Origin: Tyzzerella sp.
GTDB lineage: Bacteria; Bacillota; Clostridia; Lachnospirales; Lachnospiraceae
DNA: 64,000 nucleotides
Reading direction: 5' to 3'
Assembly (NCBI GenBank): GCA_017410145.1
Contig: JAFQRJ010000030.1
Span: 1-64,000 of the forward strand
The stretch's first letter is position 1. The number at the start of each line of letters is the position of its first letter. The translations under genes were made by a program, and so were the position numbers. The notes under the pieces were generated by a model that was not told the origin of the DNA, did not search any database, and saw nothing but the letters and a program-made list of their open reading frames with translations. This document shows positions 42,856 through 53,359 of the stretch, piece by piece.

Positions 42856-42966
42856 TTACGGTGAGAAATTGAAGTTGTACATTCTTCACCGTAAAATTTA
42901 ATAAAAATAGTTTGAAATGGTTGATTGTTACGGTGTTGTAACTAATTAATTAATTTGACACCGTAA
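42856..42966. repeat. Two 39-bp inverted-repeat units (TTACGGTG-N23-CACCGTAA)
   Basis: Unit A spans 42856-42894 (arms TTACGGTGA and TCACCGTAA). Unit B spans 42928-42966 (arms TTACGGTGT and ACACCGTAA). Each is exactly 39 bp with unrelated AT-rich interiors of 21 bp; the gap is 33 bp. They match the six-unit array at 49289-49649. They lie between the relA terminator and the promoter at 42994, so they are probably outside both transcripts and upstream of the next promoter. Confidence 0.9.
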
Positions 42967-48524: not shown

Positions 48525-49163
48525 TTAAAATCCTAATTCCTCACCAACGAGAATCACTTTAATTCTATCTTTATGTCTGGAATGTCTGGTAATTACAATC
48601 TGTGCACACATACAATCTTGTGAGTGACAATCTCCGCAGTGTCCAAGTGTGGCACAAGGAGTGCGAGTTTCAAGTCTCGCTGCATTTGCAGGTGCTGCGA
48701 AATTACCAATGCGTGCAATTCCGGAATCCACATCTTCAACGACTTTATTCATGCCTGCAATGACAATTACCTTTTCCGGTCCGTAGATAAGGCATGCCAC
48801 ACGATTTCCGTTTCCATCAATGTTTATGAGTTCGCCATCTACAGTAATTGCATTTGAACTCATCAGAAAATAGTCACACTGTAAGGTTTGGAAGTAAATT
48901 TGTTTCTTTTCCTCAGGTGTTTTCGCTAATTCTCTGTCAATAAAAGTCAAATGTTCCGCAGATTTCACAGCATCAAGAAGTCCGACTTCTCTGATTGTCT
49001 CCGTACCGCCTTTTCCAACCGTCCCACCATCTTTCATTAATTCCATGGCAAGGGCTACCGCAGAAGCACTGTCTTCGCAGTAGAAGGCCTCAATGTTACG
49101 TTTCTTGAAATTCTTAATCATGGTATTGCCTAAGGCTTTATATGCATGTTGTTTCGGTGTCAT
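48525..49163 (-). CDS. LUD domain protein (LutC/YkgG-like)
   Basis: A 212-aa protein of the LUD family (PF02589). Seen are GGTVGKGGTETIREVGLL near residue 50, ITVDGELINIDGNGNRVA in the middle and a cysteine-rich stretch (TPCATLGHCGDCHSQDCMC) near residues 165-190. Family members take part in lactate oxidation with LutA and LutB, but stand-alone copies like this one are common in Clostridia and their role is unclear; the cysteines suggest a metal site. The start has GGAGGG 6 nt upstream. It is divergent from nifJ across the 39-bp repeat array. Confidence 0.8.
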   Translation of the reverse strand: MTPKQHAYKALGNTMIKNFKKRNIEAFYCEDSASAVALAMELMKDGGTVGKGGTETIREVGLLDAVKSAEHLTFIDRELAKTPEEKKQIYFQTLQCDYFLMSSNAITVDGELINIDGNGNRVACLIYGPEKVIVIAGMNKVVEDVDSGIARIGNFAAPANAARLETRTPCATLGHCGDCHSQDCMCAQIVITRHSRHKDRIKVILVGEELGF

Positions 49164-49193
49164 ATGTATCCCTCCGTATCTTAAATATGAATT

Positions 49194-49223
49194 ATTATAT
49201 CACAGATATATATGATAAACCAA
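49194..49223 (-). promoter_or_regulatory. Promoter of the LUD gene
   Basis: On the minus strand TTGGTT (49218-49223), 18 bp, then TATAAT (49194-49199), 31 bp before the start codon. Confidence 0.5.
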
Positions 49224-49288
49224 GACGTTACATGCAAAAACTCAATATTCAGAATTCATTGGCTGTAAATTTCTTGTTTTATATTGAT

Positions 49289-49649
49289 TTACGGTGTGTA
49301 TCGTAAATTCAGCTATTTACACCGTAATATTATTTATCTGTTTTTATATATTACGGTTCAAATGGAAGAAGTTTGATTTTGCACCGTATATAATGCCTTC
49401 AATTTAATTCAAATTATGTCCTCTTACGGTGTAATTTTTTAAATTATACAAACACACCGTAGTTCCGCTAAGAGTCTATTTAGAAACTACGGTGTGGAGA
49501 ACAAAATCTTATTTCAGAACCGTAGATGATGTATTTAATAATTTTATTTTACGGTGCGAAGGGGAAAAAATTATTATGACACCGTAGACTACCATATGTG
49601 CCCATTTTTATTACGGTGCAAGACGTAAAAATTTATTAATACACCGTAA
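49289..49649. repeat. Array of six 39-bp inverted-repeat units
   Basis: Units are at 49289-49327, 49351-49389, 49424-49462, 49487-49525, 49549-49587 and 49611-49649, every one 39 bp long. Left arms follow YTACGGTKN and right arms NMACCGTAN; the core TACGGT/ACCGTA is unchanged in all twelve arms. Interiors (21 bp) and gaps (23, 34, 24, 23 and 23 bp) are AT-rich and not conserved. This fills most of the 653-bp gene-free stretch 49164-49816 between the LUD gene and nifJ. It does not look like CRISPR, an insertion sequence or a known riboswitch. Its function is unknown. Confidence 0.92.
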
Positions 49650-49772
49650 AAAAGGATATTCTAAGCCTGGAATTTAATAAACATAATCATTCAAATAAAT
49701 CAACACTAAAATTTGTTAAATGTGGTTACAATTACATTAGAAAAACTTATAGATTTTATGAAGAAAAACATA

Positions 49773-49778
49773 TATAAT
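49773..49778 (+). promoter_or_regulatory. -10 box of nifJ
   Basis: TATAAT at 49773-49778, 39 bp before the nifJ start. No good -35 hexamer lies at 16-19 bp, which suggests an activated promoter. Confidence 0.45.
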
Positions 49779-49816
49779 ATAAGCATGAGAAAAAACATGA
49801 TAAAGGAGATGAATTA

Positions 49817-52800
49817 ATGGCTAGAAAAATGAAAACCATGGATGGAAATCACGCAGCGGCACATGCCTCTTATGCATATACAGATGTTGCAGCGATTTAT
49901 CCAATTACCCCATCCTCTGTTATGGCCGAAGCGACAGATGAATGGGCTACACAAGGAAGAAAAAATATATTTGGACAGGAAGTACAGGTTACAGAGATGC
50001 AATCAGAAGCAGGTGCGGCCGGAACAGTACACGGTTCGTTGGCAGCGGGTGCGTTGACAACAACCTATACAGCATCCCAAGGTTTGCTGCTTATGATACC
50101 AAACTTATATAAAATTGCCGGCGAACAATTACCGGGTGTATTTAATGTGTCAGCACGTGCAATTGCAAGTCATGCGTTATCAATTTTTGGTGACCATTCG
50201 GATATTTATGCCTGTAGACAGACAGGGGCAGCCATGCTTTGCGAGTCCAGTGTTCAGGAAGTTATGGATTTGACACCGGTTGCACATCTTTCTGCAATCA
50301 AAGGAAGACTGCCATTTATCAATTTCTTTGATGGGTTCCGTACATCTCATGAGATACAAAAAATCGAAACATGGGATTATGAAGATTTAAAGGATATGGC
50401 AGATATGGATGCGATCACCGCATTTAGAAAACATGCCCTGAATCCAAATCACCCTTGCGAGAGAGGTTCGGCACAGAATCCGGATATCTTCTTCCAGGCA
50501 AGAGAAGCATGTAATCCATACTATGAGGCTATGCCTGCGATTGTACAGGGGTACATGGATAAGGTAAACGAGAAGATCGGAACAAACTACAAACTATTTA
50601 ATTACTACGGAGCGGAAGATGCAGAGCACGTTATCATTGCAATGGGTTCTGTTTGTGAAACAATTGAGGAAACAATCAACTATTTAATGGCAGAAGGGAA
50701 AAAAGTCGGTGTTGTTAAAGTTCGTTTATACAGACCGTTTTCAGCAGAAGCATTGTTAGAGGCGATTCCGGAAACAGTGAAGCAAATTTCCGTATTAGAC
50801 AGAACGAAAGAACCGGGAGCACTAGGAGAACCATTATATCTGGATGTTGTGACAGCATTAAAAGGAACAAAGTTTGATGCAGTATCGGTATTTGGAGGGC
50901 GCTATGGATTGAGCTCAAAGGATACAACTCCGGCACAGATTGTTGCTGTTTATGAAAATAACAGTAAGCAGAGATTTACTATTGGTATTGTGGATGATGT
51001 GACCAATTTATCGTTAGAAGTTGGAGCACCTTTAGTTACCACACCGGAAGGTACAATCAACTGTAAATTCTGGGGTCTTGGCGCAGACGGAACCGTAGGT
51101 GCCAATAAGAACTCCATCAAGATTATTGGCGATAATACCGATATGTATGCGCAAGCCTACTTTGATTATGATTCAAAGAAATCCGGCGGTGTTACCATGT
51201 CTCATTTGCGTTTTGGTAAGAAGCCAATCAAATCAACCTATTTGATTACAAAGGCTGATTTTGTGGCATGTCACAACCCATCCTATATGAATAAATATAA
51301 CATGGTTCAGGAATTGGTTGACGGCGGAACCTTCCTTTTGAACTGCGCATGGGATATGGAAGGCTTGGAAAAGAATTTGCCGGGACAGGTAAAAGCATTT
51401 ATTGCAAATCATAATATCAAGTTCTATACTATTGACGGTTTCAAGATAGGAAAAGAAATCGGACTAGGTGGACGAATTAACACTATTTTGCAATCTGCAT
51501 TCTTTAAACTTGCAAACATCATTCCAGAAGATGAGGCCATGAAACTGATGAAAAAGGCTGCAAAGGATACCTACGGCAAGAAGGGTGACAAGATTGTTCA
51601 GATGAACTATGATGCCATCGATGCCGGCGCGCAGCAGGTTGTGGAAATTGCTGTGCCGGATTCGTGGAAAACCTGCCGGGATGAAGGATTATTTGCACCT
51701 GTTATTAAAGGCGGAAGAGAAGAAGTTATAGATTTTGTTGAAACTATTCAAAGAAAAGTAAATGCACAGGAAGGAAACAGTTTGCCTGTGTCTGCATTTA
51801 CAAAATATACAGACGGCACAACACCGTCAGGAACAGCTGCTTATGAAAAACGTGGTATTGCAGTAGATATTCCGGTATGGATTCCGGAAAACTGTATCCA
51901 ATGTAACCGTTGCTCTTATGTATGTCCGCATGCGGTTATCCGCCCGATTGCGCTTACTGAGGAAGAAGTGGCGAATGCACCGGAAGGCATGCAGACCGTT
52001 GACATGATGGGAATGCCGGGAATGAAATTTGCTATTACGGTATCCGCATACGACTGTACAGGCTGTGGTTCTTGTGCAAATGTTTGTCCTGGTAAGAAGG
52101 GTGAGAAAGCACTGGAACTTCGCAATATGGCAGAAAATGCAGGAAGACAGGTTTACTTTGATTACGGACGTGCATTGCCGATTAAGAAGGATGTGGTTTC
52201 AAAATTCAAGGAAACGACAGTAAAGGGAAGTCAATTCAAACAACCATTGTTAGAATTCTCAGGAGCTTGTGCAGGTTGTGGAGAGACACCTTATGCAAAA
52301 TTGGTGACACAACTATTTGGTGACAGAATGTATATTGCAAATGCAACCGGATGTTCTTCTATCTGGGGTAACTCATCACCATCCACACCATACACCGTGA
52401 ACGATGAAGGAAGAGGACCGGCTTGGGCAAATTCCTTATTCGAAGACAATGCAGAGTTCGGCTATGGTATGTTGCTTGCACAAAAAGCATTGCGAAACGG
52501 TTTAAAAGCGAAAGTAGAAGAATTGGTAGAAAAAGGTGACAATCCGGATGTGGTGGCAGCAGGAAAAGAGTGGTTAGATACCTTTAGCTGTGGCGCAACA
52601 AATGGTATTGCTACCGATAAATTTGTGGAAGCGTTAGAAGCGTGTGGTTGTGGATGTGGTTTACGAAAAGAGATTTTAGATAATAAAGACTTCCTCGCTA
52701 AGAAATCGCAGTGGATTTTTGGTGGAGATGGCTGGGCATACGACATCGGATTTGGCGGTGTTGACCATGTATTGGCATCCGGACAGGATGTTAACATTCT

Positions 52801-53359
52801 TGTATTTGATACAGAAGTTTATTCTAATACGGGCGGACAATCTTCAAAAGCGACTCCAACCGGCGCAATTGCACAATTTGCAGCGGCAGGTAAGGAAGTC
52901 AAGAAGAAAGACATGGCAAGTATCGCGATGAGTTATGGTTATGTGTACGTGGCTCAAATTTCTATGGGTGCGGACTTTAACCAGACTGTGAAAGCGATTA
53001 CGGAAGCGGAAAGCTACCCTGGTCCATCACTCATTATCGCATATGCACCATGTATCAATCACGGTATTAAGAAAGGTATGAGTAAGGCTCAGACAGAAGA
53101 AGAACTGGCTGTGAAATCAGGTTACTGGCATAACTTCCGTTATAATCCGGCAGCAGAAGGCAACAAGTTTACACTTGATAGTAAAGAACCAACAGAAAAC
53201 TACCGTGAGTTCTTGGACGGTGAAGTGCGTTACAATGCACTGATGCGTGCAAATCCGGAAAGAGCAGAAAAATTATTCTCACAATCCGAGCAATATGCAA
53301 AGGAAAGATATGAATATCTGAAGAAGCTGATTACGCTTTATGGAGAAGAGACCGAATAG
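49817..53359 (+). CDS. nifJ: Pyruvate:ferredoxin (flavodoxin) oxidoreductase
   Basis: A 1180-aa single-chain enzyme that converts pyruvate and CoA to acetyl-CoA and CO2 with reduction of ferredoxin, the central catabolic step of these anaerobes. The N-terminal half holds the pyrimidine-binding and gamma domains (GNHAAAHASYAYTDVAAIYP, ITPSSVMAEATDEW). Two 4Fe-4S motifs follow (CIQCNRCSYVCP and CTGCGSCANVCP), then the TPP domain with CAGCGETPYAKL, NATGCSSIWG and GGDGWAYDIGFGG. Length is typical. The SD is AAGGAGATG. Upstream lies the inverted-repeat array. Confidence 0.97.
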   Translation: MARKMKTMDGNHAAAHASYAYTDVAAIYPITPSSVMAEATDEWATQGRKNIFGQEVQVTEMQSEAGAAGTVHGSLAAGALTTTYTASQGLLLMIPNLYKIAGEQLPGVFNVSARAIASHALSIFGDHSDIYACRQTGAAMLCESSVQEVMDLTPVAHLSAIKGRLPFINFFDGFRTSHEIQKIETWDYEDLKDMADMDAITAFRKHALNPNHPCERGSAQNPDIFFQAREACNPYYEAMPAIVQGYMDKVNEKIGTNYKLFNYYGAEDAEHVIIAMGSVCETIEETINYLMAEGKKVGVVKVRLYRPFSAEALLEAIPETVKQISVLDRTKEPGALGEPLYLDVVTALKGTKFDAVSVFGGRYGLSSKDTTPAQIVAVYENNSKQRFTIGIVDDVTNLSLEVGAPLVTTPEGTINCKFWGLGADGTVGANKNSIKIIGDNTDMYAQAYFDYDSKKSGGVTMSHLRFGKKPIKSTYLITKADFVACHNPSYMNKYNMVQELVDGGTFLLNCAWDMEGLEKNLPGQVKAFIANHNIKFYTIDGFKIGKEIGLGGRINTILQSAFFKLANIIPEDEAMKLMKKAAKDTYGKKGDKIVQMNYDAIDAGAQQVVEIAVPDSWKTCRDEGLFAPVIKGGREEVIDFVETIQRKVNAQEGNSLPVSAFTKYTDGTTPSGTAAYEKRGIAVDIPVWIPENCIQCNRCSYVCPHAVIRPIALTEEEVANAPEGMQTVDMMGMPGMKFAITVSAYDCTGCGSCANVCPGKKGEKALELRNMAENAGRQVYFDYGRALPIKKDVVSKFKETTVKGSQFKQPLLEFSGACAGCGETPYAKLVTQLFGDRMYIANATGCSSIWGNSSPSTPYTVNDEGRGPAWANSLFEDNAEFGYGMLLAQKALRNGLKAKVEELVEKGDNPDVVAAGKEWLDTFSCGATNGIATDKFVEALEACGCGCGLRKEILDNKDFLAKKSQWIFGGDGWAYDIGFGGVDHVLASGQDVNILVFDTEVYSNTGGQSSKATPTGAIAQFAAAGKEVKKKDMASIAMSYGYVYVAQISMGADFNQTVKAITEAESYPGPSLIIAYAPCINHGIKKGMSKAQTEEELAVKSGYWHNFRYNPAAEGNKFTLDSKEPTENYREFLDGEVRYNALMRANPERAEKLFSQSEQYAKERYEYLKKLITLYGEETE

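Follow-up and report, generated by a model that had tools for sequence, protein, structure and literature searches.

Dispersed intergenic arrays of helically phased, mirrored half-sites in a Tyzzerella lineage: candidate BIME-like protein-binding elements with terminator-like edge units

What kind of element occupies the gap between a LUD-type gene and nifJ in the gut bacterium Tyzzerella sp. (NCBI family Lachnospiraceae), and is it peculiar to this locus? In the 64,000-nt window (the whole stretch of DNA that was analysed), six 39-bp units were found in this gap at positions 49289-49649 (array 1). The flanking genes, named as in the sequence-only reading that preceded this work, encode a 212-aa LUD-type protein (48525..49163, minus strand) and a 1180-aa NifJ-type protein (49817..53359, plus strand), and both have their 5′ ends towards the array. 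Units 1-6, to which no strand was assigned, are located at 49289..49327, 49351..49389, 49424..49462, 49487..49525, 49549..49587, and 49611..49649, and the successive gaps are 23, 34, 24, 23, and 23 bp, the gap before unit 3 being longer by approximately one helical turn. Each unit is bounded by two arms (TTACGGTG and CACCGTAA in unit 1). The cores TACGGT/ACCGTA are intact in 12 of 12 arms, and TACGGTG is matched in full in 10; the left arm of unit 2 (TACGGTT, 49352) and the right arm of unit 4 (AACCGTA, 49524) contain one mismatch each. The arms alternate in orientation, so that the direct repeats around unique spacers of a CRISPR array are absent. Another two units, at 42856..42894 and 42928..42966 (likewise without strand), form a second array with a 33-bp gap, which begins ~56 bp past the stop codon of a gene that by eye is RelA/SpoT-like (766 aa). 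The coordinates, gaps, and invariant core given for array 1 in the sequence-only reading all hold; the 9-bp arms described there hold as a consensus and not as identical arms (two of the 12 seven-base arms are mismatched), and the element proved to be more widespread than had been noted.

The genome of the window (G000) is a 1.89-Mb draft of 32 contigs with 68% completeness. The pattern TTACGGTG-N21..25-CACCGTAA has four matches in the window against 0.00 expected (100 shuffles), and TACGGT-N25..29-ACCGTA has 60 in the genome against four for the reversed-pattern control. Fifty of these relaxed pairs are among the matches listed and eight further pairs are the window's own units. Because the control predicts about four chance matches, two of the pairs, C3:23177 (cores 28 bp apart) and C19:23951 (a lone unit), were taken as probably fortuitous and excluded, and the array set comprises 17 multi-unit arrays, or 18 counting one lone unit. 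When the spacing was left free, the inward pattern TACGGTG-N10..40-CACCGTA gave 42 matches (reversed control 0), with 23 or 24 bp between the arms in 41 and 22 bp in one. The arms are thus well in excess of chance in the window (shuffles) and in the genome (reversed control), for which the sequence-only reading had asked, and all 42 inward pairs have a 22-24-bp space. Among the arrays fetched from G000 and a relative, G009, with one mismatch allowed per pair, the step is 36 or 37 (23-24 bp between arms) in 79 of 83 inward pairs.

The outward pattern CACCGTA-N15..45-TACGGTG gave 35 matches in G000 (control 0), with gaps, counted by hand, of 15 (1), 24 (1), 25 (8), 26 (5), 34 (1), 35 (9), 36 (9), and 45 bp (1). 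These gaps form a lattice of ~10.5 bp (vector strength 0.93 at 10.5 bp), and the best period in a scan of 7 to 14 bp is 10.2 (0.937). As a guard against regularity produced by tandem duplication inside arrays, the first gap alone was taken from each of the 17 arrays; the vector strength at 10.5 bp is then 0.935, which was reached by none of 200,000 uniform draws. In the arrays fetched from G000 and G009, the ten longest unit-to-unit steps (46 twice, 48, 57, 58, 78, 79, 89, and 109 twice; the gap is the step minus one) also keep phase, with a vector strength of 0.91. The units therefore all lie on one side of the helix, and the helical-phase argument that had been made for the window is borne out genome-wide by 35 of 35 outward pairs. 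The sites are in helical phase, as in cooperative-binding arrays, and the lattice fits the predicted cooperative binding of a protein on one DNA face.

In a symmetrised profile of 72 units, each arm reads YTACGGTGYRAA and is followed by A-rich sequence towards an A/T dyad, the dyad base being A or T in 94%; the conservation figures of the arms are inflated, since the arms were the search key for the units. Pairing of the interiors beyond the arms (67 units) amounts to 255 matches against 262 ± 11 in re-paired controls, and the idea of uniform hairpins was therefore dropped except for edge units (see below). Interiors of different arrays are alike at a mean of 9.46 of 23 positions, against 9.45 ± 0.03 for a column-shuffled null (72 units). 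This null also explains the seeming excess over a letter-shuffled null (9.44 vs 8.26 of 23), and copying between arrays was rejected as a candidate. A 16-mer comparison of interiors with 258 kb of G000, cores excluded, gave two matches. When six of the 17 arrays were searched against the whole of G000 and G009, the best non-self match was 40 bp of another array (E = 3.7e-5; 85% identity, arms included); an orthologous G009 unit, recovered at E = 5e-7, was set apart from the non-self matches. Likeness is slightly greater among interiors of the same array (9.90 vs a column null of 9.46 ± 0.20; p = 0.023), and two within-array pairs (L029 6182/6255 and L026 6084/6157) resemble true duplicates, so the within-array regularity may partly stem from tandem duplication. 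Recognisable tandem duplications of ~73 bp were seen at L026:6084-6193 and L029:6182-6291, and arrays are therefore able to grow by duplication.

All 18 curated arrays of G000 are intergenic, between tandem (11), convergent (5), or divergent (2) gene pairs; the placement and the facing gene ends were determined from simple ORF calls, by hand and eye. Two of the 18, array 1 among them, have no facing gene 3′ end. The neighbouring genes look housekeeping by eye (RelA/SpoT-like, gltX, uvrD, luxS, atpC, prfA, clpB, mraZ, rimP, nifJ, and others), and neither a shared pathway nor a recurring gene class was seen by eye beside the 18 arrays. Rpn or PD-(D/E)XK-like genes (named by eye) were noted near arrays at L085:1070-1948 in the relative G008 and at L041:7912-8856 in G009.

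Units nearest a gene 3′ end were examined on the transcript strand (30 cases from 26 arrays of three genomes, among them the single array of G008 and seven of G009's eight array places, C28 being excluded) and compared with 118 internal unit-strands. Orthologous loci were entered separately and the cases are thus not fully independent; the pairing test was devised after four perfect hairpins had been noticed. Interior pairs (of nine) number 5.40 in edge units vs 4.08 in internal units (permutation p = 0.00015), 4.85 vs 4.08 when the four perfect hairpins are removed (p = 0.014), and 5.19 vs 4.08 in G000 alone (p = 0.0021). The next eight bases contain 4.17 vs 2.52 T (0 of 20,000 permutations), and the hairpin energy is -15.3 vs -10.6 kcal/mol. 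The opposite strand of the edge units has 4.50 interior pairs and 2.61 T. After exclusion of five doubtful cases (distant gene end or tRNA; n = 25), the values are 5.68 pairs (p = 0.00005) and 4.44 T (0 of 20,000). A stable hairpin followed by T, as in intrinsic terminators, is thus supported in statistical terms for edge units and not for internal units. Given this folding and T bias on the transcript strand, edge units probably act as terminators, a feature that is new here and had escaped the sequence-only reading. Array 1 faces no gene 3′ end and, because it is located between divergent genes, cannot display such behaviour.

Complete interior pairing on one strand, G.U pairs included, is found in four of 85 units (three in G009 and one in G000, two of them orthologous; null 0.0036 each), and these fold at about -24 to -26 kcal/mol. 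Near-perfect one-strand hairpins of 17-18 bp, formed through G.U pairs and with upper stems unlike in sequence, were observed in G009 at L042:5709-5750, L042:6657-6697, and L086:5428-5468. Array 1, taken as RNA, folds better than its shuffles (z = -5.65), and its folding energy therefore leaves an RNA role some weight. No Rfam family was matched by window positions 49150-49830 at E up to 1, and loci L079, L082, L029, and L042 yielded two tRNAs only.

The element is dispersed and lineage-specific, array 1 being just one copy. TACGGTG-N23,24-CACCGTA occurs 41 times in G000, eight times in G009, four times in G008, and not at all in the other seven genomes of the genus, so that arrays are present in three of 10; one match was found in one of 51 other genomes of the family and order. 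A family survey of 397 genomes (two from the genus) returned G000 plus eight genomes with one match each, which is the background level. The relaxed pattern gave 13, 5, 1, and 0 matches in G009, G008, G007, and G002 (controls 0, 2, 5, and 1). In a collection of 85,000 species, a three-arm pattern retrieved three stretches, all from Tyzzerella sp. RGIG1712 (G000 possibly lies outside this set), and none was retrieved from viral contigs. A phage or plasmid origin was rejected, as array 1 gave short matches only (E = 0.1 at best among the best 10 of 47 phage records and E = 1 at best among the best 10 of 239 plasmid records). A possibly related intergenic element, with the arms TTGGAC/GTCCAA, was observed in G002 (L044 and L077-L084; 10 pairs, control 0; 0 or 1 in each of the other nine genomes of the genus) and is likewise present between gltX and uvrD. 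Its steps are mostly 36-38, 65-67, and 14-15 bp, with no single helical lattice; it includes near-identical copies, and one unit that was folded forms a complete hairpin including G.U pairs.

The same sites were sought in G009, G008, and G007 for 15 arrays, gltX-uvrD and LUD-nifJ included. At seven loci, one or more relatives have both flanks; the other eight, with one flank only, are uninformative. At six of the seven (RelA-MBL, LUD-nifJ, luxS, atpC, clpB, and mraZ; whole gaps scanned), no unit is present in any relative with both flanks, and gltX-uvrD has five units in G000 and one in G009, with neither G008 nor G007 having any there. Further unequal pairs are potD-rluD (one unit in G009 vs four complete units and two lone arms in G000) and rluD-kinase (one vs five), and dgt-rplT carries an array in both genomes (names by eye). 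G009 and G007 keep both LUD and nifJ, with no arm between them. The sequence-only reading had stated that flanks kept without arms in close relatives would refute it, and this is the situation here, so that its interpretation is upheld in part; the array is therefore not a conserved control element of LUD or nifJ, and its site is dispensable in these relatives. The LUD-nifJ gap measures 653 bp in G000 vs 192 in G009 and 119 in G007, and the RelA-MBL gap 260 bp vs 62 (G009), 191 (G008), and 81 (G007); those of clpB (756 bp) and mraZ (475 and 586 bp), which partly hold other genes, are not shorter in relatives. Some stray arms count against a simple picture of empty sites, although none makes a unit: G007 has one CACCGTA in its luxS gap, and one-mismatch arms occur in the gaps of atpC (G007) and clpB (G009, 756 bp). 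In G008 (L103), the gap between the RelA-like and MBL-like genes, which in G000 holds a two-unit array, has a lone exact TACGGTG 15 bases in. The simplest reading of this pattern would be array gain in the G000 lineage, repeated loss being the alternative.

Among known systems, REPs and BIMEs are some of the closest in form. Like the Tyzzerella arrays, they are dispersed, intergenic, regularly spaced, and alternating in orientation; they are treated as sites to which proteins bind, and a part in chromosome organisation and in termination has been suggested for them (PMC2817692). REP palindromes have a common sequence and many start with GTAG (PMC2817692). The Tyzzerella arrays differ from them in sharing the arms only, and not the 23-bp interiors, in place of a common 20-40-bp palindrome, and in a distribution that does not match that of an associated RAYT (Y1_Tnp) gene. 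Neisserial intergenic mosaic elements with dRS3 repeats are likewise intergenic arrays in which other DNA is enclosed by short, conserved inverted repeats, but dRS3 has a short spacer and flanks repeated RS families, whereas the spacer here is 23-24 bp and the unique linkers keep to helical turns. Paired uptake sequences (DUS/USS) are fixed short motifs whose inverted pairs at gene 3′ ends serve as terminators; the Tyzzerella motif has far fewer copies (60 relaxed pairs in the 1.89-Mb draft), and internal units are not terminator-like. Arrays of Lrp-type regulators consist of sites repeated at ~31 bp, in helical phase and bound cooperatively; the sites are about three turns apart, as in Tyzzerella, and the motif is different. 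No array of the present form was seen among the papers listed in literature searches, a weak negative given that subscription journals were thinly covered.

Three other explanations deserve weighing against these data. If the arrays were RNA elements, the units would be transcript hairpins (terminators or processing sites) and an array a stack of terminators, as suggested by the folding and T tails of edge units, the four fully paired units, and the z of array 1. Internal units, however, are unpaired beyond the arms and lack T tails, the helical linker lattice has no reason at the RNA level, array 1 sits between divergent genes, and the Rfam search, which covered window positions 49150-49830 and four loci, recovered nothing but tRNAs; we hold this explanation to be unlikely. 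The extra DNA relative to empty syntenic sites, and the three places where one G009 unit corresponds to four or five complete G000 units, could point instead to a selfish BIME- or MITE-like repeat spread by an arm-recognising transposase, in which case the phasing would reflect the transposase complex. Empty sites at six of seven loci are what a copied MITE would leave, but the shared internal sequence of such an element was seen neither beyond column composition nor in the six of 17 arrays queried, where the 40-bp match was the best. Likewise, a RAYT-type REP finds no support in the unshared interiors or in the distribution of Y1_Tnp, the RAYT family: G000 has a fragment with an internal stop (G000:C9:43619-43828), G009 a full-length match without stops, G008 none found, and six array-less genomes carry it, G000 and G008 being only 68% and 65% complete. 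A selfish repeat therefore appears quite improbable to us.

The recurrent half-sites, fixed spacing, and helical phase would also suit an operator array through which an ordinary transcription regulator acts on the flanking genes. Against this, five of the 18 arrays are flanked by convergent genes, a setting in which promoters are not expected, the flanking genes have no pathway in common by eye, and syntenic relatives do without the array; of the three explanations, we give this one the least credence.

We lean, with some reserve, towards lineage-specific, BIME-like arrays that a putative sequence-specific protein binds cooperatively and whose edge units would also serve as terminators. The 39-bp unit would then be a bipartite site, in which two mirrored YTACGGTGYRAA half-sites stand about three helical turns apart around the A/T dyad, and a single putative symmetric protein (a probable dimer or tetramer) would occupy both arms from the same DNA face. 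With units at whole helical turns, the bound proteins would touch one another and build a cooperative nucleoprotein track; both the protein and its cooperativity are what we infer from half-sites and lattice. The unit nearest a gene 3′ end would form an RNA hairpin followed by T and so end that transcript, and the whole element would act as a boundary between transcription units, with a terminator at its edge and a protein lattice inside. The lattice speaks for a protein on double-stranded DNA and the edge behaviour for transcript ends, and the predicted boundary element fits both.

A bolder form of this protein-array reading is possible, though we consider it rather doubtful: the arrays may be a sequence-specific chromatin element, on whose phased, mirrored half-sites a putative protein polymerises to give insulator-like boundaries with intrinsic-terminator edges, and which has been gained at new sites within the genus, not as recognisable copies. 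If that were true, the inner DNA of the arrays would have no traceable origin. Apart from this bolder form, linkers that follow the helical turn in 17 separate arrays are evidence, at the sequence level, of a higher-order complex of protein and DNA at gene boundaries, in a clade represented here by drafts alone. The arrays would also be a case of alternating, interspersed repeats maintained for the phasing of proteins, with neither a common palindrome nor a RAYT transposase. An array fragment would make a clean bait for the protein, and the corresponding loci of related species, some carrying an array and some not, would provide a natural series on boundary function.
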